Assembly: GCF_014284335.1 (NCBI RefSeq)
Contig: NZ_JACOGF010000013.1
Coordinates: 1-64,000 of the forward strand
DNA: 64,000 nucleotides
Source of the DNA: Undibacterium hunanense
Lineage (GTDB): Bacteria; Pseudomonadota; Gammaproteobacteria; Burkholderiales; Burkholderiaceae_D
Direction of reading: 5' to 3'
How positions within the stretch are numbered: position 1 is the stretch's first letter; each line of letters begins with the position of its first letter. This document shows positions 49,097 to 64,000 of this stretch, piece after piece. The notes under the pieces were generated by a model, which had not been told where the DNA came from, did no database searches, and saw only the letters and a list, made by a program, of their open reading frames with translations. The translations under genes and the position numbers were made by a program.

Positions 49097-49852
49097 CTAT
49101 TTCTGCGCAGATTTTTTTTCCTTAACCGTTTTTCCTCGCATAGTTTCGCCTCGTAGTTTTACATACTGCGAACTGTGAACAAGTCGGTCTAGAATGGCAT
49201 CAGCAATTGTTTTATTGCCAATGTAATCATGCCAAAGCTCCAACGGAATTTGGCTAGTGATGATAGTCGACCGAGATCCAACTCTGGAATCGACCAATTC
49301 CATAAGATCACCTTGTGATTGGTCGGGAACCGGTGCAAGTCCCCAGTCGTCGATAATGAGTAAATCATACTTGGCTAATTGATTGAGTCGCTTCACAAAT
49401 GTTCCTGTAGCGCGCGCTGCAAATAGGTCGTCTAGCAATAAAGGCAAGCGTACAAAATATACACTCATTCCCTGACGGCAAACTTGATTTCCAAGCGCGC
49501 AAGACAACCATGATTTTCCAGTGCCAGTTGGACCCGCAAAGATTACGTTTATGTTCTGCCGAACCCAATCCCCATTTGACAAACTCAGCATAAGAGGTTT
49601 ATCTAAATTTCTAGGTTGCGCATAGTCGATGTCCTCAACACATGCGCTCGTGTGTTTTAATTTTGCATTTCTTAGCAGTGCAGTAAGCCGCTTGTTGCTG
49701 CGGTAGGTGGTTTCATAATCCACCAAACCTCCAATGCGGTCTTCGAAACTCAAATTTCGAGCACTTGGATTTGGAAGTTGACGCTCGAGTTCTTCTGCCA
49801 TTCCAAAGAGCTTTAACTCTTTTAATTTTTCCAGCGTTTGATTGATTAGCAT
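49097..49852 (-). CDS. istB: IS21 helper ATPase IstB
   Basis: The 251-residue AAA+ ATPase has the DnaC/IstB pattern: GPTGTGKSWLSCALG (Walker A near residue 109), DLLIIDDWGLAP (Walker B near 167) and a C-terminal LVHSSQYVKLRGETMRG arginine segment. IstB helps IstA choose and activate the target DNA. Its start codon overlaps the istA stop codon. Confidence 0.94.
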   Translation of the reverse strand: MLINQTLEKLKELKLFGMAEELERQLPNPSARNLSFEDRIGGLVDYETTYRSNKRLTALLRNAKLKHTSACVEDIDYAQPRNLDKPLMLSLSNGDWVRQNINVIFAGPTGTGKSWLSCALGNQVCRQGMSVYFVRLPLLLDDLFAARATGTFVKRLNQLAKYDLLIIDDWGLAPVPDQSQGDLMELVDSRVGSRSTIITSQIPLELWHDYIGNKTIADAILDRLVHSSQYVKLRGETMRGKTVKEKKSAQK

Positions 49853-51417
49853 TATTCGCTTTCTAGGCTTAGAATATTTTTATAGTAATTTTGACCGCGC
49901 AGATTTTCATGGTCTGTCGCCGTTGTCATGGATTTTGACTCATTCACCGGATTGGATTCGTCAATTTTGCTATCAAGGTTTCGAGACAAGATTGTTTTGA
50001 TCCCATCGGTGGACATTGCGCCGCATGCTAAGGCATATCTGCAAGCTGCGTTGAGTCTGACATTGCCATATTCAAGTGCGATTTTTTTAAAAGCCCCTTG
50101 CACACGATAACCAACGTTTCTGTTGTTGACTTTTAGAAGTTGATGACGCATGAATTGCTCAACATGTTCTCCAAGTCCTGCGGCCCATTTGAGACAATCT
50201 TCAACGTTCCAGCCATCGAAAATTTTATGTTGAGGTGGTTGATGATTCCTATCGGTTGTTTTCCCTCCCTTTATTTGTGACTTGTCGTGACTTGCGATTC
50301 GTTTGCCTTTGTAAATAATTTCAATTTTTTTTTCGGTCGCCCTGATCGACATTTCTAAGTTTCGATAGGTATATGGCACACTGTAATAATGGTCATTGCA
50401 ATTGACGTGATAATCCTCGCCAGCCCTGGAGATGGTCCAAATTGCGAATTCGTATTTGCTATCTGGCAGGCTTCGCAACGTTGGCTTTTCGATTTCCTGC
50501 CAGTTAGAATACCGCGACCCTGGAAGCTGTTTAAATGGACGATGATTCATGTCTTCTAGCAACAGTGCAATTTCTGCATTGAGCTCTTCGAGCGAAAAAA
50601 ACACTCTTTTTCGAAGCACAAACAAAATCCATCGCGTAATTATTTGCACCGTTAGCTCTACTCCGCCTTTGTCACGCGGCTTATAGGCTCGCGCAGCCAA
50701 TGGGTGAATGTGATAGTGCCTACAAAGCGCCTTGTAAGATTCATTAATCAGGGGCGTGTATAAGCTGGTCTTGATAACAGCAGATTTCAGATTGTCATGA
50801 ATAACTAGCTCGGGAGTGCCGGCGAAATATTCAAACATTCGCACATGAGACCCGAGCCAATCTTCAAGGCGCTGGGATTCTGATGCTTCGCAAAAAGTGT
50901 AATTTGAGGAACCTAACATCCCGACAAATATCTGCACATTCCGCGTAACACCAGTTTTCGGGTTGGTAATTTTCATGGTTTGCCCTGCATAATCAACCAT
51001 GCATATTTCGCCGGCGATTCTGGTTCTACGAAGACTTAATTTGAGCGTTTTTTTATACTGTTTGTACTGCCTGCAAAAAGCACTATAAGAAATAAGATGA
51101 CTTTTATTTTGATCAGTCACTAACTCCCGGTACATTTGAGAACGTGTAAAACCCTTTTTCTTCGATTCAACATGGACAAGCGCGTATTCAATTTCCGGAT
51201 CAGGGCGGTTATTTTTATTCGCGCTCTTTGGAAATAAATTTAATTTCAGTTGATCGTCATAAAGATCGATTGGCAGCGGCCAGGGTAGTTGCGCGAGTTG
51301 AAATCTCGTTAGGTAATCGGCTACGGTTTTTCGCGCAACATTGCATATGACGGCAGTGACGCGCTGAGATTTTTTTTGATCAAGGAGGCAATGCAAGACG
51401 TCACGTATTTTTTGCAT
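49852..51417 (-). CDS. istA: IS21 transposase IstA
   Basis: The 521-residue transposase starts with a helix-turn-helix region (MQKIRDVLHCLLDQKKSQRVTAVICNVARKTVADYL), then an RNase H-like core with Asp in VDYAGQTMKI (near 140), HDNLKSAVIK (near 212) and a Glu around KGGVELTVQI. It joins the element ends to the target. It appears full length and undamaged, so the element may still be active if both ends survive. Confidence 0.93.
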   Translation of the reverse strand: MQKIRDVLHCLLDQKKSQRVTAVICNVARKTVADYLTRFQLAQLPWPLPIDLYDDQLKLNLFPKSANKNNRPDPEIEYALVHVESKKKGFTRSQMYRELVTDQNKSHLISYSAFCRQYKQYKKTLKLSLRRTRIAGEICMVDYAGQTMKITNPKTGVTRNVQIFVGMLGSSNYTFCEASESQRLEDWLGSHVRMFEYFAGTPELVIHDNLKSAVIKTSLYTPLINESYKALCRHYHIHPLAARAYKPRDKGGVELTVQIITRWILFVLRKRVFFSLEELNAEIALLLEDMNHRPFKQLPGSRYSNWQEIEKPTLRSLPDSKYEFAIWTISRAGEDYHVNCNDHYYSVPYTYRNLEMSIRATEKKIEIIYKGKRIASHDKSQIKGGKTTDRNHQPPQHKIFDGWNVEDCLKWAAGLGEHVEQFMRHQLLKVNNRNVGYRVQGAFKKIALEYGNVRLNAACRYALACGAMSTDGIKTILSRNLDSKIDESNPVNESKSMTTATDHENLRGQNYYKNILSLESE

Positions 51418-51656
51418 CTATATCCTCTTTTTGTATCTTATGTCTGCCTGTTGCCAGCAATCGTTGGCAAGTATGTTTTTTCACAAAAAATCCTTTGCAT
51501 AGATTAATTTTTGAGGGCGCGACCCCTCCCAGACATGAAGTCCAGTTTAAGAAATTTTTGGGGACGTAGAAAGGCAGGCTCACACACCGCTTGACAGCTC
51601 AGCATGTAAGTTGTAGAGTGAGATCAAAACCCGTCAAAGTTTTTGAAGTCCCACTG

Positions 51657-51684
51657 AAAACCCCAGTTCGCCAACTGGGGTTTT
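51657..51684. terminator. Bidirectional terminator after the XRE gene
   Basis: The perfect 12-bp stem AAAACCCCAGTT (51657-51668) pairs with 51673-51684 around a CGCC loop, with T and A tracts on both sides. It lies between the IS21 region and the XRE regulator gene. Confidence 0.88.
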
Positions 51685-51709
51685 CTTTTTAGCCTCTCAG
51701 TTTTTCAAG

Positions 51710-52099
51710 TTATGAGGCTGGCATTTTTTTATCCTTCCAATTTTTACACGCGTTTATCAAAATCTGCTCTATTGCCACCAAGTCTTCATCTCCTAGTTTT
51801 GTTATATTTGCTGCAACTTGATTGATGGTCTTAAGATGCGTCATGCCCACGTCAACGGGCATCTTTATTGTTCTTTGAGAGTCCTGTGCATATAAAATAA
51901 ATTGTGCCGCTTCGTTCTCTGTCATTGAGAGTGCATCAGTCAATTTCTTTAGAAAAATATAATCTGCAGGTGTGCTAATTCCCTGTTCGATTCGCCAAAG
52001 GTATGGGGCGGTGCAATGGGCGAGCTTCGCCATCTCGCGCAAGGAAAGCTTGGCTTCGAGTCTTTTTCTTTTTAATTCTGTGCCTACTTTTGTTTGCAT
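51710..52099 (-). CDS. XRE-family regulator
   Basis: A 129-residue protein with an N-terminal HTH of the Cro/XRE type, residues ~5-60, including LSLREMAKLAHCTAPYLWRIEQGISTPA. The C-terminal half is a helical region that could pair dimers. It lies at the downstream end of the minus-strand defence-like genes and could regulate them. The start follows an AAGGAG-like site. Confidence 0.88.
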   Translation of the reverse strand: MQTKVGTELKRKRLEAKLSLREMAKLAHCTAPYLWRIEQGISTPADYIFLKKLTDALSMTENEAAQFILYAQDSQRTIKMPVDVGMTHLKTINQVAANITKLGDEDLVAIEQILINACKNWKDKKMPAS

Positions 52100-52270
52100 A
52101 TGAAGGAGTAAATGTATTTAGGCAACATCATGCACTAAATCAGCGGTTACTTCAACTGGTTACATTAAAATATCTTTTAAAATCAAATACTTAGGAATAA
52201 GAAAAAAAATTTAATTTTCTTTGCGAAATCATTGAATTCCCACATTTTCTAATCAAATTTTCGTTTTCAC

Positions 52271-52428
52271 TCAAGATTGTCGTATGGATTCATGGCATTC
52301 GCAGCAATGTCACGTAACGGTTCATAGCGTCGAAAAATAATGTGTTAGATACCAGGTCGTCTGGCGATCTCACGAAATGGAACCTGGTCACGAATGTGCC
52401 AGTATCGAATAAGACCCAGTAATGCCAC
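52271..52428 (-). pseudogene. Decayed IstA N-terminal fragment of another IS21 element
   Basis: Read on the minus strand, this gives VALLGLIRYWHIRDQVPFRE IARRPGI, a stop, then HIIFRRYEPLRDIAANAMNP and a stop. The first part resembles the HTH region of a different IS21 transposase (RYWHIRDQVPxREIARRTG). It is a relic from an earlier insertion, unlike the complete istA at 49852-51417. It lies between the XRE and Shedu genes. Confidence 0.65.
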
Positions 52429-52496
52429 GTCCTACCCATCAAGATAAGTAGTATGGTGAGCTAAACGTGATTCAATTTTCAGTGCAAATCAACAAC

Positions 52497-53744
52497 CTAT
52501 CGACCAGCTTTGAATTGTTGAATCACGAACTGTAGTCGTCGCAGTAGATCATCATAGGTTATAACGTCAATGATATTCTTATTCTGCCTACGGAAAATTT
52601 CGAAATCACGTCGCTGCGCATCAGTCAGTTCGTGATCCCGCCCCATAATGATAATGCCGCACGGGTTAGTAATCTTGATCCGCAATCCAAGTGGCAACCT
52701 GTCTGCGTACTTTTTCGTCAGATAATTTTCGCCAGCCATTCCCCACCGACAAAGATGGAAGATATATTTCTCTACCTGCATTATCGAACCGGTGAGTTCT
52801 CGAAGCGGAATATGATTTCCTCTATAATGTGCGTCTGTCATCACACATTTTCTGAGTGGCTTCTTAATCTCAATGACATCTATGTTACCCGTCGCGTCAA
52901 CAAGCATTATGTCTAATTGTTTGTCGGTATTGTTTCCTGGATCGTTGAGTGGCACCGACTTAAACGCCGCGATGTATTTTGAGTTTAAAAGGCGTACTAT
53001 ATCTAATATTTGTTTTTGCCAAACGTGTTCGGAATAACCGTCTTCGGATTCAAGCATGTCTTGCAATTGGGAATATAAAAACTCAAACTTGGCGACTTCC
53101 GCCTCACGAAATCGTCGAATGTAATTCTTTGGCTGCGTCTTTATGCGTTTCTCCAAATAGTTACTAAGCATTAGCTCGGCGTCTACCGACGCATCGGTGT
53201 ACTGACGGAGCACTGCGCTAACCCTAGCGGCGACGTAACGCTTTAGCTCATAGCCAGTCGGGAACTGCTGGACGAGCCGTTCGTACTCTGCGACGGGAAT
53301 AGCATCAGGAGCCTCCCCACCAATAACGATGCGACTGGGCATTAGTTTTGCGGCGACACGGAGGATAGAGGTTTGCGCCTCGGTGCTAAACCATTTCCAC
53401 GTTGGCTCTGCACTGCACGCGATCAATATGGGTATCTCAATGTCTAGGATATCGGAGTCAAATACGAAATAATTATCGACGGCAGTGGCAACCGTAAATC
53501 GCATTACGTAGTCATCCATTAAAGATGGATGGTCATCGTCGACCTGAGACCTTGCATTGAGTTCATCCAGATAGGCTTGCGCAAAATTTGCTCTGGTCAA
53601 ATGATACGTGCCCTTGATGAACAGCTCTTCTCCACGATTGAACTTACTGTGGACCCAGGAGTCATCATCCCTAGGACGATATAACAAATGAAGCTCATCT
53701 CCCGAAGCTTCAAATTCGACAGCCAATTTAGTCATATCGATCAA
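52497..53744 (-). CDS. sduA: Shedu-family (SduA, DUF4263) antiphage nuclease
   Basis: The 415-residue protein has the Shedu nuclease signature in its C-terminal half: WQKQIL near 242-247, Asp278 in QLDIMLV, Glu292 and Lys294 in VIEIKKP (the D-(D/E)xK catalytic pair), then LTGSIMQVEKYIFHLC with Gln323. Shedu acts as a single-gene defence with a PD-(D/E)xK-type nuclease and an N-terminal regulatory part. The N-terminal ~230 residues vary between members and here show no known domain. It is followed by the PLD-fold gene upstream in the same direction, 161 bases apart. Confidence 0.9.
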   Translation of the reverse strand: MIDMTKLAVEFEASGDELHLLYRPRDDDSWVHSKFNRGEELFIKGTYHLTRANFAQAYLDELNARSQVDDDHPSLMDDYVMRFTVATAVDNYFVFDSDILDIEIPILIACSAEPTWKWFSTEAQTSILRVAAKLMPSRIVIGGEAPDAIPVAEYERLVQQFPTGYELKRYVAARVSAVLRQYTDASVDAELMLSNYLEKRIKTQPKNYIRRFREAEVAKFEFLYSQLQDMLESEDGYSEHVWQKQILDIVRLLNSKYIAAFKSVPLNDPGNNTDKQLDIMLVDATGNIDVIEIKKPLRKCVMTDAHYRGNHIPLRELTGSIMQVEKYIFHLCRWGMAGENYLTKKYADRLPLGLRIKITNPCGIIIMGRDHELTDAQRRDFEIFRRQNKNIIDVITYDDLLRRLQFVIQQFKAGR

Positions 53745-53905
53745 TTAGTTTAGTAAAGGTCTGCACTCGCAAACCGAAATAAGAATGACAGTTTGTTGCG
53801 GCCGAACCCGGTCAATGCCATGCAGCTTGAAACCTTGTTCAACTATAAGTTACACACTGTCACGCCAAGTGCTGTCGCCGTTTACTTACTTTTTCAAGTG
53901 GTTGC

Positions 53906-55111
53906 TCATTCCTTCTTTGCTCTCTCTTCATAGAAGATGGCATCCAGCATAGCCGCACGAGCATGCCAAGCCTTTCGCTCCAGGAGGCCTGAAGGCTCAG
54001 GTGACTGCCACCACGGCGACTGCATGAGACGAACAATCACTTCTTCCCAATATTGCTCATAGTTAAGCTTGTCGGTCCTTGTTATTCCTACGTCTGCAGC
54101 AAGCTTTCGCATGTTTTGGGCATCCACACACAAAAATACATCAGGACGCTTCATGGCAAGGAGCCTGGTCGCCGTTGCAAGACCATCCTTCCCGTTTGGA
54201 TACGCCTTCAGGTACCGCTCAATATAGGCGTCATAGTGCCTTCTGCCGATGTCCCCCTTAAGCGGAATCTCATCAAGTGCAAGTGAATAAGCTTCGTTCC
54301 CAGAATTGATCAGCCCAGCGAAAGTTCCGGCCCCTTTCATGCTGCCAAACCATGGCCAGTTCTTAATTACCGTCACCTTACTTGGAAGCCCTGCAATCCC
54401 TTTTCGTACTGCAAGATCCATGTCATTGAAATGGTCGTAGGTCTGGAAATATTCCCGAATCTCTTCAATGAATGAAAGCCGCTCCTTGAATCCGTGATAT
54501 CGATCCTTTTTGACTTCTGCTAGGTAGTCTTGCCAGCCCATCGACATCACTTGGGAATGGACTGCTGGTTTAGTAGTGGCTTTATCTCCGTAGATGTCAG
54601 CCACTTTTTTCAGTTCAAGTGTTTTAAGGCTCCACAACTTTCGATAACTATCAGCTTCATTTTGATCGATTGTCTGAGCGCAACTCCAATATTGATCAAT
54701 GACCTCAGCTATATCCTGCTTCAAATTGGTACTGCCGTCACGGCTGGTAATCAGAACCGATAGCTCTGAATTTTTCGTCAAAGCACCGACAGTAAGGTTC
54801 GGACTTCCAATGACAACTTCCCATCCGTCGTTGCTCCAGAAGAGATAGACCTTAGGGTGAAATACTCCATTAGGTTGAAGCTTAAATTTTACCTTTGACG
54901 ACCCCACGAACTGATCAAGAACGTCGGGGTGTGTTTGGTAGAAATGCGTGCCAATGACGGCTTGAACAATTTGATCCTTATGCATCACCAATGATTTAAA
55001 GACTTCAGTGTCAGAGGAGGCCCATGCAGTGGCAATGGAGATGCAAGGATATTCTTCTACAAGCCGTTTCAGTTGTTGCCTTAGTATCGCGTTGGTACTG
55101 ATAAGTTTCAT
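53906..55111 (-). CDS. Phospholipase-D-fold protein, likely nuclease
   Basis: A 401-residue protein. An N-terminal PLD domain has a single HxK motif, FHPKVYLF with His85 and Lys87, then GSPNLTVGALTKNSEL with Asn105 and Glu116, the usual partners. One HxK per chain means a dimer would form the active site, as in BfiI-type nucleases. The C-terminal half (residues ~200-400) is alpha-rich with no recognised domain and could bind DNA or ligand. Located in a defence island, it may be a restriction-like nuclease; this is inference. Confidence 0.75.
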   Translation of the reverse strand: MKLISTNAILRQQLKRLVEEYPCISIATAWASSDTEVFKSLVMHKDQIVQAVIGTHFYQTHPDVLDQFVGSSKVKFKLQPNGVFHPKVYLFWSNDGWEVVIGSPNLTVGALTKNSELSVLITSRDGSTNLKQDIAEVIDQYWSCAQTIDQNEADSYRKLWSLKTLELKKVADIYGDKATTKPAVHSQVMSMGWQDYLAEVKKDRYHGFKERLSFIEEIREYFQTYDHFNDMDLAVRKGIAGLPSKVTVIKNWPWFGSMKGAGTFAGLINSGNEAYSLALDEIPLKGDIGRRHYDAYIERYLKAYPNGKDGLATATRLLAMKRPDVFLCVDAQNMRKLAADVGITRTDKLNYEQYWEEVIVRLMQSPWWQSPEPSGLLERKAWHARAAMLDAIFYEERAKKE

Positions 55112-55263
55112 CTAATTCTCATATCTAGCAAGTCAAGTAATACAGCCGTTGCATGGTCATGGTCCGTCATTCTGATTTTGCTGTCAGATTAAGTTTGACC
55201 CAATGCATTTTATTAATAATGATTTTCCCATCGAATAGCAGGACGCTTCCTCTACTTTCCATC

Positions 55264-57228
55264 TCAATAATCTCTAAGTATCTTGGTCACTTTGGATTCA
55301 ACCCATGTACCAAATTCAGTTACGTGTCGCAGAACACCTACAATTTCCAAAAGCAAAAATACAAGAATTGCTGCCCCAACAAAATACTTGGTTAATCCAT
55401 CTGGCAAATGGTGTCCACGAAATATTTCTATGGCTCCCAATAGCACAAGAATTGTTGGTACGGCAGTTACAAGATGTCGAATGATTCGCGCCCAAAATCG
55501 TACCTTTCGTTCTTTTCTAAACTCACTTTCTCTTCTAAGCTCGTCCGCTGCGTGCTCAGCAGTGTCGGCACGTTGAATCACTTCTTTCATTTGTAGAAGC
55601 AACAATTCTTTTTCTTTGTCATGAACTGCACTTTGTTCATCGATAAGTTTTTCTGCGCTCTCTCTATAGGTTGCACTAACTCGTTCGACAATCTCATTCA
55701 ATGTGGAAGCATCGATTTCGTCTGATCCTTCGTTTTGCAATTCGGCATCCCTGAGCAATTTGTCCGATAATGTTGAAATAACGAGTGATGTCGCTTCGTC
55801 TGTCGTTATCCGCTTTTCATCTTGTAGGACTTTCAAATGCTTTAAAAATCTATCCCAGGTTGATTGGGATGGACGCATTGTTGCGGCACACAAGCTGATA
55901 AGCTCCCGCAATTTGAAATCCACATTTAGGTTTGGTCTCTTTAGCCATGCTATATTTGCTAGCGCACGAATATGAGCAATTGGCTCGATTCCCGATTCGT
56001 GTTCATCATCCTGCCACCAGGCAGAACCATTTTTTATAACAAGAGGGGATGTCGTCGCAAAAATTGCGTTGGTTTCCTCGATCCGCATGGACCTTTTTCC
56101 TTTACGTAGAATCAGTACGCCTGCGACACAATCCACGTCATGTACGACTCTAGGCTCTTGCTCGTCTTGACGAATTTGGTTTGCAAATCTGAGGGCCAAA
56201 GCTGATTCGTTGTATGTATATGCTGGAACACGTGAAGGAAGTGTGCGAATGCGAAGGCCGATGGATTTGATATCAGTTTCAAGAAGTGCTGCCATCTGTA
56301 CGACGTCGCCTGGGGTGTAGCGTTTTGTGAGAAAATGACGTGCCATTGGCACTTGTTTTAATGAGGATCGCCCATTCTGCGTGGCGAGCTTCTCTTGATA
56401 CATTGCCAGGATTCTGTGTATTTCTTCAATGGTTTTGTCAAACACAATGCATTCTGCGCCAACAGTTTTGAGGACGTCTATTGTTTCTCGCATAAGAATA
56501 TTTGCTGCGTCCCCTTCATAGCCAATTGCTTGACGAACCAAGGTGCTGTCGAAAACTACAGTCAAATTCTTAAACGTTTTTTGATTCGGGTTAACGTTAT
56601 TGCTAAATGCAGCATGATATAGAACTAGACCTTCAAGCATTCTCTTCAATACTATCGAGAGCGCCAAATCATTGGCAACTATTGTTGACACGAATTCAGC
56701 GACAATGCCAGCTAAAATGTCATCCTTATGGGTAAAGTTATTTGGTTGGATTGGTTCGTTCAGCAGCAAACTAACATGGGCACGTTTGATAAAGTCAATT
56801 AGTGCGTCTAGAGCAGCATCGGTATTCTCAAGTACTAATCCACGAAGAGCTGCATGCTTCAGTAGCTGTTCAGCTAATCGGTTCTGTTCAATGCTTATCG
56901 CTGCCTTATCGCTTACGATATTCTCGGCTGAATTATATTCCGTGCTTGTCTTCCAATATCTCCCTGACTCGCGTCTTAAATTTCCTTTGGATATAGCTCT
57001 TCGTAACAAGGAAGTTATTGTTTGTTGCGGCACTTTGATTCCATGCTCTTTCAATATTAAATCTTGTACATCAGCAACAGAGAAGTGATCTGATTTAATT
57101 TTAGGCAGAACGTCCATTGCAAGTGGCATGAACATTCCTAGATGGTCACTGCCTGCATCAATTTGTGCCTTTAACAAAGCTATTGTGGAAAGCCCTGAAG
57201 AGTTAACGTTCTGTACGATTTCGATCAA
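55264..57228 (-). CDS. Unrecognised membrane-anchored protein with a PIN-like core
   Basis: A 654-residue protein with four visible parts. Residues ~35-95 look like a winged helix. Residues ~222-390 have an acidic pattern like a PIN RNase: Asp227 in VVFDSTL, Glu268/Glu269 in DKTIEEI, Asp364/Asp366 in HDVDC, and a Thr-Asn (386-387) where PIN domains often have TND. Residues ~525-600 form a coiled coil. Two helices follow near the C-terminus (about 590-640). No family is recognised. It reads in the same direction as the PLD and Shedu genes, 152 bases apart, and could be a membrane-bound toxin or defence nuclease. Confidence 0.7.
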   Translation of the reverse strand: MIEIVQNVNSSGLSTIALLKAQIDAGSDHLGMFMPLAMDVLPKIKSDHFSVADVQDLILKEHGIKVPQQTITSLLRRAISKGNLRRESGRYWKTSTEYNSAENIVSDKAAISIEQNRLAEQLLKHAALRGLVLENTDAALDALIDFIKRAHVSLLLNEPIQPNNFTHKDDILAGIVAEFVSTIVANDLALSIVLKRMLEGLVLYHAAFSNNVNPNQKTFKNLTVVFDSTLVRQAIGYEGDAANILMRETIDVLKTVGAECIVFDKTIEEIHRILAMYQEKLATQNGRSSLKQVPMARHFLTKRYTPGDVVQMAALLETDIKSIGLRIRTLPSRVPAYTYNESALALRFANQIRQDEQEPRVVHDVDCVAGVLILRKGKRSMRIEETNAIFATTSPLVIKNGSAWWQDDEHESGIEPIAHIRALANIAWLKRPNLNVDFKLRELISLCAATMRPSQSTWDRFLKHLKVLQDEKRITTDEATSLVISTLSDKLLRDAELQNEGSDEIDASTLNEIVERVSATYRESAEKLIDEQSAVHDKEKELLLLQMKEVIQRADTAEHAADELRRESEFRKERKVRFWARIIRHLVTAVPTILVLLGAIEIFRGHHLPDGLTKYFVGAAILVFLLLEIVGVLRHVTEFGTWVESKVTKILRDY

Positions 57229-57275
57229 GATGCATCCCCTTTTTTTAAATCACAAAAATAGAAATAAAGATCCGA

Positions 57276-57467
57276 TTAATCAATATGATAGTGACCAGTG
57301 ACAGGCTCATTCAGAAATCGATCCGCTTCGGCCAAGTCACCGCAAACTCGAACCCTATATCCCTGATTTTGAAAAGTGGCTGCAATGCTGCGCACGCAGA
57401 ACCTCTTTCCGACGCGTGGAGCACCAGTGATCAGAATCGCACACTGACGAGAAAACTGAGCAAGCAA
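57276..57467 (-). pseudogene. Short P-loop protein fragment
   Basis: A TTG-start frame of 63 residues (open for five more upstream codons) contains ILITGAPRVGKRF, a Walker A-like loop lacking the usual Ser/Thr after GK. It has no convincing start codon or ribosome site and stops after about 60 residues. It looks like the surviving end of a larger AAA or mobile-element ATPase. Confidence 0.4.
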
Positions 57468-57671
57468 TGGATTGGGTTGTAACTAATTGAATAATATCTT
57501 GTTATTTTTTTACATAAATTACATATAAAGCTAGATATTTAAATAATTGTTAAATAGTTGCAAAAATGATCCGTTAACTTGGCATAGCGGAAAATCTCCC
57601 TCCAACCGCCTCCATTTCCAAGAAATCAACAATCGGAAATGAAGATGACATTTAATTTTTTTTTTTGCATA

Positions 57672-57691
57672 TACTGTACATTCATTCAGTA
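57672..57691 (+). promoter_or_regulatory. LexA (SOS) box upstream of imuA
   Basis: TACTGTACATTCATTCAGTA matches the CTG-N10-CAG LexA site, with the flanking TA/TA pairs also present. It lies 40 bases before the imuA start codon, the position expected for SOS control of imuAB. Confidence 0.85.
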
Positions 57692-57730
57692 TTTAGCTAA
57701 TTCAAAAATTATTTCGTCTGCAACAAAATC

Positions 57731-58477
57731 ATGATTGCCCAGTCACTAATCCCGCCAAATCTATCCAGCGTGCTAGGCAAAATGCCACACGCCATCTGGC
57801 GTGCGAGCGAGATGGCTGTCTATAAAGCATCAACGCTTTCCTCTGGCTTCAAAGCTTTGGATACAGAGTTGCCAAACGATGGTTGGCCACGCTCTTCTTT
57901 GATTGAGCTATTAGTCCAGCAAGCAGGCATAGGCGAAATGCAGCTCTTGAAGCCAGCTCTGGCAACGATCGCCAGGTCACAGCGCATCGCCCTTATCCAG
58001 CCGCCCCATGCCCCCAATGGCCTGACATGTCAAAATTGGAATTTATCCGCCGAGCGGCTCATGTGGCTCAAAGCCAAAACCACCGCCGATGCCCTTTGGA
58101 CAACCGAGCAAATTTTGAAAAATGGTAGCTGTGGTGCAGTACTGCTGTGGCAAACGAATATCCGCGCTGAAGCCTTGCGTCGATTGAACCTGGCAGCACA
58201 GACGACCGACACTTATTTCTTTCTCATGCGCCCAATATCAGCGCAAAGAGATACTTCTCCGGCACCACTTCGTTTAGCCCTCCGACCGGCGCGAGCGGGT
58301 ATCAATGTGGAAATCGTCAAGCGGCAAGGACCACATTCAGACCTTATCCATTTCATTAACCTGCATGACATGCCTGTCAGTCGCCACAACAACTCAACGG
58401 AACACGATCATGCGCATGTGGATTTGCCTGCACCTGCGATACTTGCCACTGGCAGCAATCAGACCATCCTGGTCTGA
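57731..58477 (+). CDS. imuA: ImuA, SOS-induced translesion synthesis factor
   Basis: The 248-residue RecA/SulA-like protein has MPHAIWRASEMA, LSSGFKALDTELPNDGWPRSSLIELLVQQAGIGEMQLLKPAL, and GLTCQNWNLSAERLMWLKAKTTADALWTTEQILKNGSCGAVLLW, typical of proteobacterial ImuA. With ImuB and DnaE2 it builds the SOS mutasome. It is behind a LexA box. The downstream partner imuB is broken, so ImuA is probably orphaned here. Its reading frame overlaps the first ~70 bases of imuB. Confidence 0.9.
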   Translation: MIAQSLIPPNLSSVLGKMPHAIWRASEMAVYKASTLSSGFKALDTELPNDGWPRSSLIELLVQQAGIGEMQLLKPALATIARSQRIALIQPPHAPNGLTCQNWNLSAERLMWLKAKTTADALWTTEQILKNGSCGAVLLWQTNIRAEALRRLNLAAQTTDTYFFLMRPISAQRDTSPAPLRLALRPARAGINVEIVKRQGPHSDLIHFINLHDMPVSRHNNSTEHDHAHVDLPAPAILATGSNQTILV

Positions 58478-58858
58478 GCCTGGCCCCTATGTTTTGATGG
58501 AGCAAGACCGTGCCCTGACCGCTACCCGGGAAGCAGCAGTTGCTGCAGCCGTACCCGACGCAGTCATGATTGATCGTGATCTGCACAAGGAAGACATTGC
58601 CTTTAACACCATCGCGATGGCGCTATTGCGGTTTGCACCTGAAGTTACCTACGCTGATGATTTCTGCGTCCTCATGACGTTACTGCCAGTCTGAGTCTGT
58701 TCCGTGACCCACGAGCTATTTGCAGACAGATCAAGAAATGTATTCGAATGCTGGGATTTACCGCCACGATGGGCACCGCACCAACAGCCATGGCAGCCTG
58801 GCTTTTATCAAGGTTCCCGACCAGCAGAAAGTATCCACAAGCAAGACGAGTTATCTAG
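58410..58858 (+). pseudogene. imuB: imuB remnant (Y-family polymerase-like), frameshifted and truncated
   Basis: The ATG at 58410 begins MRMWICLHLRYLPLAAIRPSWSEPGPYVLMEQDRALTA, a good ImuB start. The frame stops at 58692-58694. The matching continuation SLSLFRDPRAICRQIKKCIRMLGFTATMGTAPTAMAAWLLSR appears in another frame from 58688 to a stop at 58856-58858, so a single-base shift broke the gene, and the rest (~300 residues) is missing. The mutasome is therefore not functional from this locus. Confidence 0.9.
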
Positions 58859-59211
58859 CTTGACACGATGACAAGATCGCTGGATCGTTACCCGCAACCA
58901 GTTGTGAGGCTTCCGCTCGACATCAATGCCTACTATCGGGCATGGGCAGACGTGTTCTGATTGTCAGCAAATCAGATTCTTGAACAAATCTTGCGTGGCT
59001 ACTATGAAACAGAGGAATTGGCTCACTCGGATCAAAATTGTACTTAAGGGAAAACTCGAATTTATCGGTCTCCCAGCAAATACTGGAACCCCAAGTATTT
59101 GATTTTATTGAAATTTCGTATTCGCGGGAACGTCGAAATCTAATACACCTACGTTTTCATAGACAAATTTGCATTGTACGGAGCATAATACTTCCTAAAC
59201 ACGGGAGGCAT
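58859..59211. other. Post-imuB gap with a short protein-like relic
   Basis: About 350 bases between the imuB remnant and the Trypco1 gene. One frame at 58871-58960 reads LDRYPQPVVRLPLDINAYYRAWADVF to a stop, which looks like a relic of a gene I cannot name. The rest carries no gene; the promoter of the following cassette is probably here. Confidence 0.5.
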
Positions 59212-59580
59212 ATGACTACATACATCGCTTTCGACAACCCTGACGGGTCACGTACGCTCGTTGAAGTCGCCGCAGAAGAAGCGGCCATCGGTTTCGGCGC
59301 GCCCGTGCGAGCAGGGTTGATAGACCGCGCAGGGGATGCTGTTCGTGCGGCGAGTGTTTCCTTGCAAGACGCTCTGGCCGCGGCGATCCGCAATAACGCC
59401 CAAGCACTGCACCGGGGTGTTCAGGAAATTTCGCCGCCGCCCACAGAAGTCGAGATTACTTTCGCTTTGAAAGCTACCGGCGAACTCGGGAACGTTGCAG
59501 TAGGCAAGGCCGGCGCCGAGGCGAACTACACTTTGAAGCTGGTTTGGAAGCCCTCCGCCGTCAAACCACCAGGAGTCTAG
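59212..59580 (+). CDS. Trypco1 (CU044_2847-like) protein, first gene of a trypsin-NACHT cassette
   Basis: A 122-residue protein, MTTYIAFDNPDGSRTLVEVA..., whose second half has a PTEVEITFALKATGELGNVAVGKAGAEANYTLKLVW segment. Size and pattern match the trypsin-co-occurring domain 1 family (CU044_2847), found next to trypsin-like proteases with NTPase modules in bacterial conflict systems. A GGGAGG site 6 bases upstream decides the ATG at 59212 over the longer frame. It probably binds or is cut by the adjacent protease; that is inferred from the family's genomic habit. Confidence 0.8.
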   Translation: MTTYIAFDNPDGSRTLVEVAAEEAAIGFGAPVRAGLIDRAGDAVRAASVSLQDALAAAIRNNAQALHRGVQEISPPPTEVEITFALKATGELGNVAVGKAGAEANYTLKLVWKPSAVKPPGV

Positions 59581-59722
59581 ATGTTTGAATTCCAGAACTA
59601 TTCCGATTTGCGAATTCGACGATTGATCTCTTTGTATTCCGCTCGTGAAGTTCTTCCCGCGCCAGTCGGTCTAGCTTTCTTGCTAACCGGCTGCCGCAGC
59701 CTGTCTTAGCTAGGTTACTACA

Positions 59723-62047
59723 ATGTACCGCGATCTGCATACCTCAGTTGTACGAGTGCTAGCAAGCAACGGTAGTACGGCGGGAACGGCGTTTTTTTGC
59801 CTGCCAAAAGGGTATCTGGTGACATGCAGTCACGTGCTTGACGTCCTGGCCGATAGTGACCAGCTAGTCGAATTGCGGTTTTCACCCGAGGTCAACGTGG
59901 AAACGGTTTGCTTGAAGGCAACGGTGTGCTGGCAATGGAGTTCCACGTCAAAGCAAGACGACATAACAATCCTTCAGTTGGTGGATGACATACCTGCGCG
60001 TGCGGCACCGCTCTCGTTCGGTGCAGGCAAGCCGCGCCTGGGTGCGCTCGTGGATGCATGGGGCTACCCTGCTCACAATCCAGAATTCGGCATGCCCGGC
60101 CAAGCCGAGTTTGTGGGCATGACACGAGAGCTAACCACTGGTGCGGAGGTGTATGTAGTGCGTGGCGACAGTATCGCCCGCGGGTTTAGCGGTGGCCCGT
60201 GTGTGCTGCGTGAGACCGGGGAGGTTCTGGGGGTTGTCACGGCCTTGACTACAGCGGACCGGGAAGGGCGTTGGCCCCTAGGATGCTTCGTTACGCCAGC
60301 GGAATCCGTGCTTCGACTCTGCCCAGTCCTTACAGTGGGAACGCCGCCCGCAGTACAGGCGCTCCTCCAACCTTGGGAGGAATGTTGGGAGCCGTTTCAG
60401 AAGTACATTGGATCTTCTGAGTTCGGGAGTGCCTTGGATGTCGACTACAAATTTCCGTTGATTGAAGAATTGTCGGACACCGCTCCTTGCTCAGTAGAGC
60501 CGGTTGAACTCTTGAGGCAGCAGTTGGCTTCGCACGAGCCAAAGTTGATGATCATTGTGGGTGCACCTGGTACTGGCAAATCGCGCCTGTTAGCGGAATT
60601 GGCTCGTGCGGTCAGTTATGCGGACCGTGACTCGGCGTTACCGCAACAACTGGTTCCCATCCTGGTTACGGCGCGCTCTTATGCTGCAGCGCGTGGTAAT
60701 TCGCCAGCAGAACACTTTGCAGAGAGCTTGCGACTCGACGGAGCGGTAGCCACCATTAAGGCCTTGGACGCTCAGGCCGTCGAAACGCTGTTTCTAGACG
60801 GACGCTACCGTTGCTTGGTCATGATCGATGGCGCCGATGAAGTTTCGAGTCCAACGGGCCGCAAGCAGTTTTTCAAGAAAGTAGCCGCCGATGCGCGGGC
60901 ACTTCTACATGAAGGCCATCTGGTCGCACTGTCCACGCGTCCACTGTATGACACAAAGAGCGACCTGCTGGATGGCCTCTGTACCGTTTATAGACTACCG
61001 TTTTTTGACCAGGGGGACTCGGCTCGCCTCGCCGATAGCACGCTGGGTTCTCTTTCCGAGGAGTTTCAATCCACAGCTACATTAACGGGACTTATCGCCA
61101 GCCTGGACACACCTTTACTGTTGAACCTGGCAATGGCGTTATTCTTGCGGCGCCCCACAAAGTTTCCCGCGACGATTATCGGCATCTATAATCAATTCCT
61201 CGAGTTGATGCGGGAGGGTTGGAAGGACGCGCCTGCGCCATCGGCTGATATTGTGGAAGTTCTTGGGAGTGCCGCTCTTGGGTCTTTAACTCCCAGCGAC
61301 AGCGGTGGTCATGTCGAAGAGTGGCTCAACGAGATCGACCATGCAATCCAGGATGCATTCCGTACTGTGCGCGAAGAATCACGCCTCGGTGTCGACGACA
61401 CACTTTGCAAAGCGCAGGCCGTAATCAATTTCGGATTGCAATCCTCCGGACTTATGTACCGACAAGCGGATGCGATCCATTGGTCACACCTACTTCTGCG
61501 AGATTACCTCGCTGCGATGCGCTTGAGCGCGATCGTGAGGACGGACGAGCAGTGGGTGCAACACTTTCTGAATACGCAACACGGCGATTCCCTCAGACGT
61601 GAGAGTCTAATCCTATTTTTGGTAAATGAGTCTATTACAGGATGCGCTGAGAGACTACTGCGAACCACTCGCGACGAGTGGAATGGATTCCCGCTTTCGC
61701 TGTTGTTGTTTATCAAGGACTGTTTGCACCGCGGTGCCATTTTCAGTTCCGACTTTCTCGATCAGCTGTTCTGCGCATTTGAAGAACTCGCGTTGGAAGA
61801 TCAGCACAGCTTTGGTAGTTGTAGATCATTGTTTTCCGGCGACTATGGCGTCTTCTCGCACCTGTTGGCATTGCAGCGAATTGCGCAAGCCCAGTCCGCC
61901 ATACTGAGAGCAGTAGACCGCGCCGGGCGCGACTGCATGATGTCTGAGTGGCCTGAATCGAGCCGTTCAAGAACATTCACACCAAAGATTCTTTACGCAG
62001 GTCCGTTGGCGACCATGCGTGCTATCTTTCCCCGTGATGAGAATTAG
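59723..62047 (+). CDS. Trypsin-like protease fused to a NACHT STAND NTPase
   Basis: A 774-residue protein. The N-terminal ~200 residues form a trypsin-fold protease with a complete triad: His37 in VTCSHVLD, Asp80 in DDITILQL and Ser156 in GFSGGPC. A NACHT-type NTPase follows, with Walker A GAPGTGKS at 280-287 and Walker B MIDGADE at 367-373 (DGxDE). The C-terminal ~350 residues are alpha-helical and likely the sensor. This is a STAND architecture: ligand binding could drive oligomerisation and switch on the protease. It is the second gene of the cassette, 142 bases after the Trypco1 gene. Confidence 0.87.
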   Translation: MYRDLHTSVVRVLASNGSTAGTAFFCLPKGYLVTCSHVLDVLADSDQLVELRFSPEVNVETVCLKATVCWQWSSTSKQDDITILQLVDDIPARAAPLSFGAGKPRLGALVDAWGYPAHNPEFGMPGQAEFVGMTRELTTGAEVYVVRGDSIARGFSGGPCVLRETGEVLGVVTALTTADREGRWPLGCFVTPAESVLRLCPVLTVGTPPAVQALLQPWEECWEPFQKYIGSSEFGSALDVDYKFPLIEELSDTAPCSVEPVELLRQQLASHEPKLMIIVGAPGTGKSRLLAELARAVSYADRDSALPQQLVPILVTARSYAAARGNSPAEHFAESLRLDGAVATIKALDAQAVETLFLDGRYRCLVMIDGADEVSSPTGRKQFFKKVAADARALLHEGHLVALSTRPLYDTKSDLLDGLCTVYRLPFFDQGDSARLADSTLGSLSEEFQSTATLTGLIASLDTPLLLNLAMALFLRRPTKFPATIIGIYNQFLELMREGWKDAPAPSADIVEVLGSAALGSLTPSDSGGHVEEWLNEIDHAIQDAFRTVREESRLGVDDTLCKAQAVINFGLQSSGLMYRQADAIHWSHLLLRDYLAAMRLSAIVRTDEQWVQHFLNTQHGDSLRRESLILFLVNESITGCAERLLRTTRDEWNGFPLSLLLFIKDCLHRGAIFSSDFLDQLFCAFEELALEDQHSFGSCRSLFSGDYGVFSHLLALQRIAQAQSAILRAVDRAGRDCMMSEWPESSRSRTFTPKILYAGPLATMRAIFPRDEN

Positions 62048-62060
62048 CCCAGGAGGACAC

Positions 62061-63245
62061 ATGTACTTGTCAAAGCTTTCAGTCTTGCACCCCAGCGAAA
62101 CGAAAAACCTACGGAGTTTCCTGGACGAGCACCCGAGTGGCGATTTACTCGTCGTCATCAACTCAACTTCCCAGGAGGGAGAATACGCATGGCTATCACG
62201 TCGAGGCAGCAAAACACAAGAGGGCTGCGGAGCTATCAACGAATCAACCAAAACCGGTGTTGAAGTAGCGAGTCATAGCACCAGAGTCTTCCACGGAGAC
62301 CGTCTCGCCTTTGTACGGTTGTTAGACCAACTTGCCGATCGGGAGCGCGCAGGTTGGAGCCGTTCGACCTTCGCAAGCGATTGCAGGTTGTCTGCAGCAG
62401 ATGGACTGCATGATGAGCAGGCATGGTGCGAGACCGCCTTTGAGCACGATGGCAGGCCAAGCGAACATACGGCGTACGTCGTACAAGTGCTCGGCAGCCA
62501 AAATTACTTTGCCTACTTCAACTTCAAATGGGTCGGAGAAGACTCAAGTTCAGTTAAGAGTTGCCATGATCTCAAGACGTGGGCAAGTGCATATGTGCCG
62601 CGAATGTATGGCGAGCGCGATGTTGAACGCTGGGTCTTTCTGTGCAAGGAAGACCTCGAGACGTTTAGCCGTGTTGCGGTAGACTATCGCCGCGCATTCA
62701 CATTGATGGACTACTCGTTTGAGGTTTTTCGGGCAGGAGGTAGTCCAAAACGGGACCCGACGCTTCATCCGGGAGTCGGCAGCGCTGCTGGCACCGGTCT
62801 TCGTGCAATCTTGCAGTCTGCACTGGGGCGTCTGGGAATGAGCACTGCCGAAACCTGGACGCCTAAAGATCAAACCATGGTCAACCGCCTGACCAAAGTA
62901 CTCGCGGACAAGGCGAGTGGACCAATCGACATGACAAAATCACCGTTGGCGCTACCAAAGTTGAAGTCATTGCTATTGAAACACCTAAATCTAAGGAATA
63001 TTCCTCCTGCCGCACTGACCCAGAACGAAGTCATTCGACTTTACCTTGGCCTCGCCCGATTCTATGAAGGTTGGGATAAGGTAAGTTGTGAAGCACTGTT
63101 CAGCAGTAATATGCGTACGTTCAATATCGAAGCGATCAATGAGTGTTTGACCGATGACAAAGTACAACACAAACTCGACAGAGCTCGTCAACTGTTAGTG
63201 GCCGAATTAATCTCTAATGGAATCGAGGTTGACGATAGCCAATGA
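62061..63245 (+). CDS. Unassigned third protein of the trypsin-NACHT cassette
   Basis: The 394-residue protein starts at the ATG behind a strong AGGAGG site, 13 bases after the trypsin-NACHT stop codon; the frame is open 14 codons earlier. No signal peptide or membrane helix is seen. The first ~250 residues are mixed alpha/beta with many Trp and Tyr (FAYFNFKWVGEDSS, YVPRMYGERDVERW); the rest is helical and Lys/Leu rich. No catalytic motif could be recognised. Tight spacing says it works with the protease-NTPase, perhaps as its substrate, adaptor or effector. Confidence 0.75.
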   Translation: MYLSKLSVLHPSETKNLRSFLDEHPSGDLLVVINSTSQEGEYAWLSRRGSKTQEGCGAINESTKTGVEVASHSTRVFHGDRLAFVRLLDQLADRERAGWSRSTFASDCRLSAADGLHDEQAWCETAFEHDGRPSEHTAYVVQVLGSQNYFAYFNFKWVGEDSSSVKSCHDLKTWASAYVPRMYGERDVERWVFLCKEDLETFSRVAVDYRRAFTLMDYSFEVFRAGGSPKRDPTLHPGVGSAAGTGLRAILQSALGRLGMSTAETWTPKDQTMVNRLTKVLADKASGPIDMTKSPLALPKLKSLLLKHLNLRNIPPAALTQNEVIRLYLGLARFYEGWDKVSCEALFSSNMRTFNIEAINECLTDDKVQHKLDRARQLLVAELISNGIEVDDSQ

Positions 63246-63391: not shown

Positions 63392-63775
63392 CGACGAATT
63401 GTCATCATTGTTGAAACTACAACCGCCAATGTTCCACTTAATTTCTTGTTTGATCTTCATAATGGTCTTCCGCGTGACAACGAAGATCGTACTCGTATCA
63501 AGGCAATCATTAGTGCTTGAGGTGATAGCATAGCAAAAGCACATTGGACCCGTGGCATCATTGTCGATGAGAACGGTAATTTGCAGGTCGATGTTGAGTT
63601 ATATATCCTTGCCGTCTACCGTGGCAAACAGGAAACGCGAATCGCAGCGGCTGAAAAAGGGGTCGACCAACTTAATGAGCAACTTGAGTATGTCTCCCAT
63701 TTTCAGGAGTGTGAGCAGGAGTATGCGAATAAACTCGGAGGAAGAAATCTCGCTGGAATAGCTTTCATTAACTAA
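63392..63775 (+). pseudogene. Decayed ORF of unknown identity
   Basis: One frame is open for the whole stretch except an in-frame TGA at 63518-63520. Both halves look protein-like (NVPLNFLFDLHNGLPRDNED; then VDENGNLQVDVELYILAVY with a charged helix). There is no recognisable start. It overlaps the IS66 fragment at its end. Likely the tail of a gene broken when the region was rearranged. Confidence 0.45.
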
Positions 63776-63953
63776 GTTCTGCCAGCGTGGACAAACAGTC
63801 GTGGTGCGGTATTTGGCCCAGTGCTTCGGCTGCCGTCGGGTGTTGATTGGCTGCATGCAGATCAAAGAATTTACGGCGTGCATGCGCCAGACAAGCTAGC
63901 TTGGTGATGCCATGACCAAACAGTGCTTTGTAGCCAGAATAATGTTGTGCATA
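63768..63953 (-). mobile_element. IS66 transposase fragment (tnpC)
   Basis: Read on the minus strand, the frame gives YAQHYSGYKALFGHGITKLA CLAHARRKFFDLHAANQHPTAAE..., the GYxxLF..G..(R/K)..CLAHARRKFFD block that is diagnostic of IS66 TnpC. It is cut at both sides: a stop at 63768-63770 ends it and a stop at 63957-63959 precedes it. It marks the right edge of the accessory region. Confidence 0.85.
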
Positions 63954-64000
63954 ACATTACGCGGGTTATGTTGCGCCGAAATTTAGGTTGCGGCGGCGGT

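Follow-up and report, generated by a model that had tools for sequence, protein, structure and literature searches.

The 64,000-nucleotide (nt) window analysed here, i.e., positions 1 to 64,000 of contig NZ_JACOGF010000013.1 of Undibacterium hunanense, contains a cassette of three genes that follow one another on the plus strand and encode a small Trypco1 domain protein, a fusion of a trypsin-like peptidase with a NACHT-type STAND NTPase, and a third protein devoid of any recognised family. The gene order, the domains, the intact catalytic motifs, the recurrent pairing of Trypco1 with trypsin-STAND genes and the fact that no C-terminal sensor domain is recognised in the fusion are all directly observed. 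The reading we tentatively favour, with somewhat less than an even chance of being right, is that of a proteolytic STAND switch of a known type whose recognition or adaptor module is a separate protein, the third one, the position of the third gene being what suggests this role. The oligomerisation, the activated proteolysis and the cell death ascribed to the switch would follow by analogy with related systems. The Trypco1/trypsin-STAND pair is already known in kind and, as far as the searches reached, the third gene is an orphan.

The Trypco1 gene (59212-59580, 122 residues) most likely starts at the ATG located at position 59212, which is preceded by a GGGAGG resembling a ribosome-binding site (59203-59208), the mechanically called open reading frame (ORF) beginning at a TTG in position 59038. 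It is followed, after a gap of 142 nt, by the gene of the trypsin-NACHT fusion (59723-62047, 774 residues) and, after another gap of 13 nt, by the third gene (62061-63245, 394 residues). A preliminary description of this DNA had placed three consecutive genes on the plus strand, the last two separated by 13 bases, and the ORFs were found exactly in this arrangement. The 13-nt gap contains an AGGAGG (62051-62056), which, like the signal ahead of Trypco1, was read from the sequence and makes a strong ribosome-binding site shortly before the ATG of the third gene. The third frame stays open over 394 codons and the other five frames hold 10 to 21 stops each, so that its length exceeds chance and the third ORF looks like a real gene. 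The codon score per codon amounts to 0.087 for Trypco1, -0.080 for the fusion and -0.073 for the third gene; all three fall below the 18 long ORFs of positions 1-48000 of the window, which score from 0.156 to 0.387, and hence the cassette looks foreign.

The Trypco1 protein matches the PF19493 profile with 60 bits (cut-off 24.6) and the NCBIfam profile NF041216 (CU044_2847) with 40.8 bits (cut-off 23), and is the single match of this kind in its own genome at E ≤ 0.001. The trypsin-like peptidase gene adjoining it is the fusion, the peptidase domain of which (residues 21-171, 59783-60235, PF13365) matches Trypsin_2 with 42.1 bits (cut-off 27.6). The full catalytic triad indicated in the preliminary description, made of H37 (codon 59831-59833), D80 (59960-59962) and S156 (60188-60190), is invariant in a four-row alignment of the fusion with three relatives and also lines up in a seven-row alignment of trypsin domains. 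The NTPase and its winged-helix region, delineated by profile and by motif alignment, extend over 60536-61516 and comprise GAPGTGKS (residues 280-287, 60560-60583, with the lysine K286), DGADE (residues 369-373, 60827-60841), STR (residues 404-406) and the H589...DYLAA stretch (61487-61516). These motifs correspond to the Walker A motif, the DGxDE type of Walker B motif, the STR sensor and the H...YLAA motif of the winged helix, respectively. The Walker motifs are therefore as intact as previously announced, and all four elements align with those of relatives, two of which contain a NACHT domain above the cut-off (49.0 and 47.3 bits), which is why the NTPase is read as a NACHT-type one. No FGE-sulfatase, WD40 or other recognised C-terminal domain was detected in the 774 residues of the fusion by profile search at E ≤ 1. 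Among the sequences of the PDB, none matched the fusion at E ≤ 0.01, and the AlphaFold prediction of the fusion with one relative gave an uninformative model (mean predicted local distance difference test, pLDDT, of 31).

The association of Trypco1 with a trypsin gene recurs in other bacteria. A tblastn search of plasmids with the fusion retrieved eight records, all from Streptomyces, and Trypco1 occurs directly upstream of the trypsin gene in all eight of them, according to the annotation (CU044_2847) in seven and, in the unannotated eighth, to a phmmer-similar ORF ending just upstream; the two of these eight relatives that were profiled consist of trypsin-nSTAND1-WD40 proteins. Trypco1 is rare in Pseudomonadota (9 of 398 genomes at E ≤ 0.001, 8 of them above the cut-off, the own genome included). 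Eight other Pseudomonadota loci, distributed in seven genomes, are above the cut-off, and a trypsin gene stands beside Trypco1 in four of these (L016, L018, L020 and L022), two of which are trypsin-NACHT-FGE-sulfatase fusions of 1171 and 1177 residues. The fetched stretches of the remaining four (L017, L019, L021 and L023) contain no trypsin according to a trypsin profile that was built from the same seven trypsin domains it then found and consequently tests only for further trypsins; a MoxR-type AAA gene is present in L019, and the Trypco1 gene of L021 lies at the end of its contig. A C-terminal sensor-type domain, either FGE (two) or WD40 (two), occurs in four of the six profiled trypsin relatives and, judged by these four, the usual C-terminal domain of this type seems to be absent from the present fusion, in contrast to the order tentatively proposed in the preliminary description, where the C-terminal helical part would be the sensor and Trypco1 or the third protein would be cleaved.

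In locus L020 (G133:C70, 5138-10826), the Trypco1, trypsin, AAA ATPase and FGE-sulfatase proteins are encoded by four separate neighbouring genes, so that detached parts do exist, though with an NTPase of the AAA and not of the NACHT type. Other searches for the cassette or its parts were less productive: no relative of the fusion occurs at E ≤ 1e-10 in 398 other genomes of an order sample; a scan of the collection with a two-row alignment of the fusion yielded one locus, in a Magnetococcales metagenome-assembled genome; neither a viral scan nor a search of phages retrieved the fusion, a viral scan with Trypco1 was equally negative, and a DNA-level search for the cassette in plasmids gave no match. 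Since the single-protein scans match exact 8-residue patterns and thus pick up close relatives only, their negative outcome tells little about distant ones.

Trypco1 owes its name to a co-occurrence with trypsin that was noted for VMAP systems (Kaur et al. 2020, PMC7159879) and is, where the texts of PMC7159879 and PMC10907252 deal with it, at most called a predicted adaptor. STAND proteins that combine an N-terminal peptidase with a lectin-like FGE domain are presented as predicted conflict systems (Kaur et al. 2021, PMC8195603; PNAS 2024, PMC10907252). The ternary partners of VMAP, MoxR and vWA, were found neither among nine proteins of the window (49852-63245) nor among ten proteins of the own genome (eight downstream of the trio and two small upstream ORFs), the rest of the genome not being searched. 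The cassette shares with the described trypsin-STAND-FGE/WD40 conflict proteins the upstream Trypco1 gene and the N-terminal trypsin followed by the STAND NTPase, but its fusion is devoid of FGE, WD40 or any other recognised sensor and an orphan gene comes next. The earlier assignment of the Trypco1 and trypsin-STAND module to the predicted-conflict kind thus agrees with the recurrence of the pair, with the published parts and with the nearby presence of Shedu, a known defence gene.

How such a switch may operate can be drawn from systems in which the trypsin is better documented. Trypsin domains fused to defence proteins work through activated proteolysis in two tested systems, HamMAB and Avs1. 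For HamMAB, it has been demonstrated that oligomerisation activates the fused trypsin, the protease becoming toxic when fused to a dimerising zipper, and this mode of activation is also discussed for AVAST (PMC12799240). In Caulobacter, lysis needs the catalytic serine of LypA, a CARD-trypsin-ATPase protein (PMC13236601). By analogy, the present fusion should also be an off-by-default switch, with a NACHT part that activates the trypsin. In the resting state, the NACHT NTPase would be held off; a trigger would cause it to bind nucleotide, or to exchange it, and to form oligomers in which the trypsin domains come together, resulting in the cleavage of a partner and, eventually, in growth arrest or in the death of the infected cell. 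Trypco1, as the usual small partner of such trypsins, could be a regulator, an adaptor or a substrate. Several relatives presumably read the trigger with a large FGE-sulfatase or WD40 domain at the C-terminal end of the chain itself, whereas here the third protein, translated right after the fusion, would act in trans as the recognition or adaptor part.

Two other groups of proteins are close enough to be compared. The CARD-NLR/LypABC system (PMC13236601), as described there, similarly comprises a three-gene operon and a trypsin-like peptidase linked to an ATPase in one chain (LypA), but the present fusion offers no room for an N-terminal CARD because its Trypsin_2 match starts at residue 21, its Walker motifs are intact while those of LypA are lost, and the third protein, in contrast to LypC, has no trypsin match. 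The antiphage bNACHT proteins (PMC12169576) have in common a central NACHT and, in some of the clades described, a short C-terminus; the present system differs by its trypsin effector, its Trypco1 partner and its third gene.

The third protein could be assigned to no family by the Pfam, PADLOC-DB or NCBIfam profiles (E ≤ 1), in line with its earlier designation as an unassigned protein; its PHROG match is at chance level (E 0.36), and its sole match among PDB sequences (E 0.5) was also taken as chance. Its identification with a known effector was rejected, on the grounds that Pfam, PADLOC and NCBIfam gave no profile match and PHROG no usable one. A tblastn search of 72,556 plasmid records and 50,697 phage records found no match, and neither the genome contigs nor the viral ones yielded a relative in pattern scans, an absence that says little on distant relatives because these single-protein scans use exact 8-residue patterns, which reach close relatives only. 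Genomes were sampled at the levels of the phylum (398), family (145), class (369) and order (275), in overlapping samples whose counts are thus not additive. The only clear match is that of the own genome, 1 out of the 398 of the phylum sample, none of the other 397 giving a match at E ≤ 0.001. Weak matches at E ≤ 0.01 beyond the own genome occur in 1 of 144 (with an internal stop), 3 of 368 and 2 of 274 genomes (one with stops) of the family, class and order samples; they were dismissed because each spans less than 90 residues and their number is about the chance rate at E ≤ 0.01 per genome. Two of them, L034 and L038, cover the same residues of the third protein (about 142-208) and their ORFs resemble each other, presumably as cysteine-synthase-type enzymes, so that the two are not independent; their 66-residue resemblance to the third protein was taken for chance. 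The E-values of this comparison refer to a handful of preselected ORFs. Against 11 genomes or records with Trypco1 loci, the best E-value was 0.25. The AlphaFold model of the third protein alone is uninformative (mean pLDDT 36).

The third protein is ranked first as a detached recognition or adaptor module because it occupies the position at which four relatives carry a sensor-type domain that the fusion lacks. Several points weigh against this reading. To begin with the switch itself, of the profiles proposed as a check in the preliminary description, those of Trypco1 and of the trypsin were matched above their cut-offs, while the NACHT match of the fusion reached 22.5 bits, under the Pfam cut-off of 26.7, and the AAA models matching the fusion are likewise below their cut-offs. 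In addition, the fusion may need no partner sensor, since protective bNACHT proteins with short C-termini have been published (PMC12169576). Two relatives depart from the rule, too: the 475-residue trypsin protein of L020 shows a trypsin only, as does the 1229-residue ORF of L022 at E ≤ 1e-5, an indication that the sensor may go unrecognised or be absent. With respect to the third protein, phmmer run with its filters off revealed no detectable likeness to FGE, to WD40 or to the C-termini of the relatives. The possibility that it is a split-off C-terminus was rejected after comparison, with filters off, with the mechanically called ORFs of 13 loci, where the best E-value, apart from the protein itself in the own genome (L024), was 0.77; a shuffled copy scored as well in the same search (best E 0.13), and a split of an ancestral C-terminus is consequently not shown. 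The summed length of the fusion and the third protein (774 + 394 = 1168 residues) is near that of the FGE-type relatives, which is suggestive but amounts to one coincidence. The antisense frame of the third gene has a codon score of -0.033, slightly above that of its own frame, so that codon usage alone is no proof of this frame, and a foreign codon score binds the trio no more than it would any other foreign genes. Finally, a second genome with the trio was not found in the samples of genomes searched, nor is the trio described in the passages on Trypco1 or Trypco2 of the two papers naming them in the searched library. The proposal of a specific three-gene system was not borne out: none of the searched samples shows the trio co-conserved and the third protein has no relative found in them, so that the three-gene form is not shown as a conserved system. 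One occurrence cannot show that three genes form one system.

A close rival, ranked second and held to be somewhat unlikely, is that the third protein is a protease-gated effector, inactive until cut by the NACHT-triggered trypsin, the product of which would harm the cell or the phage genome, the C-terminal part of the fusion, short and helical, then being in charge of sensing. Such gating has been demonstrated for the trypsin-fused HamMAB and Avs1, the trypsin of which cuts a separate partner nuclease made as a proenzyme (PMC12799240). It is consistent with the separate and tightly coupled third gene, with the intact triad, and with the PADLOC profiles, since the best matches of the trypsin part are to RT-Protease_XI (E 1.6e-12 and 5.8e-12), followed by a weaker one to Avs1b (E 1.7e-4). 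However, the Avs1b profile covers residues 8-124, i.e., the trypsin part only, the full-length NCBIfam model of Avs1b gives 14.8 bits for a cut-off of 1500, and the fusion has a NACHT-like NTPase instead. The common features with AVAST type 1 (Avs1) and HamMAB, as far as described in PMC12799240, are a trypsin fused to a defence enzyme and a separate partner gene upstream, but neither Trypco1 nor the third protein matches a metallo-beta-lactamase profile, and the published pro-nuclease genes typically lie upstream of the protease, a place taken here by Trypco1. A motif scan of the third protein for metallo-beta-lactamase (HxHxDH), HNH-like, CxxC, PLD, lipase, zincin and Walker motifs was empty, the three HD dipeptides and the loose PD-(D/E)xK-like pattern (residue 161) that it did show being uninformative; hydropathy indicates no strongly hydrophobic, i.e., membrane-spanning, segment either.

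A less probable explanation is that Trypco1 and the trypsin-NACHT fusion make a system of two genes, behind which the third one lies by accident, as a passenger of the island without any relation to them. It would account for the lack of co-conservation and of relatives, and for the genes found downstream of the Trypco1/trypsin pair elsewhere, which are small (183 residues in L005, 114 in L030 and 169 in L016) and unlike the third protein. It also suits the frames containing LACLAHARRKFFDLHAANQHPTAAEAL on the minus strand of 63760-64000, about 500 nt beyond the third gene, which resemble IS66 transposase debris. The 13-nt spacing, the strong ribosome-binding site proper to the third gene, the shared strand and the near-equal codon scores of the third gene and the fusion argue against it. 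An inhibitor or immunity factor holding the protease switch off is improbable, for although a tightly coupled downstream regulator would suit an autotoxic protease, Trypco1 is the more natural candidate for this task because it recurs with these trypsins.

The accessory character previously attributed to the region, with Shedu, a PLD-fold gene and insertion sequence (IS) remains, was recovered by profile searches. On the minus strand lie an IS21 transposase (49852-51417, NCBIfam), the Shedu protein SduA (52497-53744, PADLOC E 6e-144), the PLD-fold gene (53906-55111, PF13091, 28.3 bits for a cut-off of 27) and, next to the latter two, a 654-residue protein (55264-57228) without any family above cut-off in Pfam, PADLOC and NCBIfam, which has, by eye, a hydrophobic and probably membrane-spanning C-terminus and is possibly a further defence gene. 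A 63-residue fragment with a P-loop-like GAPRVGK is found on the same strand at 57276-57467 and is perhaps the remnant of a larger ATPase. The plus strand carries the ImuA gene (57731-58477, NF033429), followed by a short ORF (58341-58694) without NCBIfam match, which reads like the broken-off N-terminal part of the Y-family polymerase ImuB, in which case the remainder of imuB may have given way to the island. All this fits a mobile stretch carrying defence genes.

Owing to its compact size (a 774-residue switch plus one extra gene), the cassette is small enough to be cloned as a whole, and could serve to ask which role is devoted to Trypco1 and whether, in the manner of HamMAB and Avs1, a trypsin-NACHT protein has a gated partner to act on. 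It is conceivable, though rather doubtful, that an undescribed class of proteins is seen here for the first time, the third protein being either a detached sensor, which plugs into a trypsin-NACHT switch lacking one, or a pro-effector of unassigned fold unlocked by NACHT-driven trypsin cleavage. Should the third protein indeed act in one of these two ways, its gene would add a type of module to the NLR-like immunity of bacteria, and proteolytic STAND systems would exchange the part that recognises or kills through the replacement of a downstream gene instead of a fused domain.

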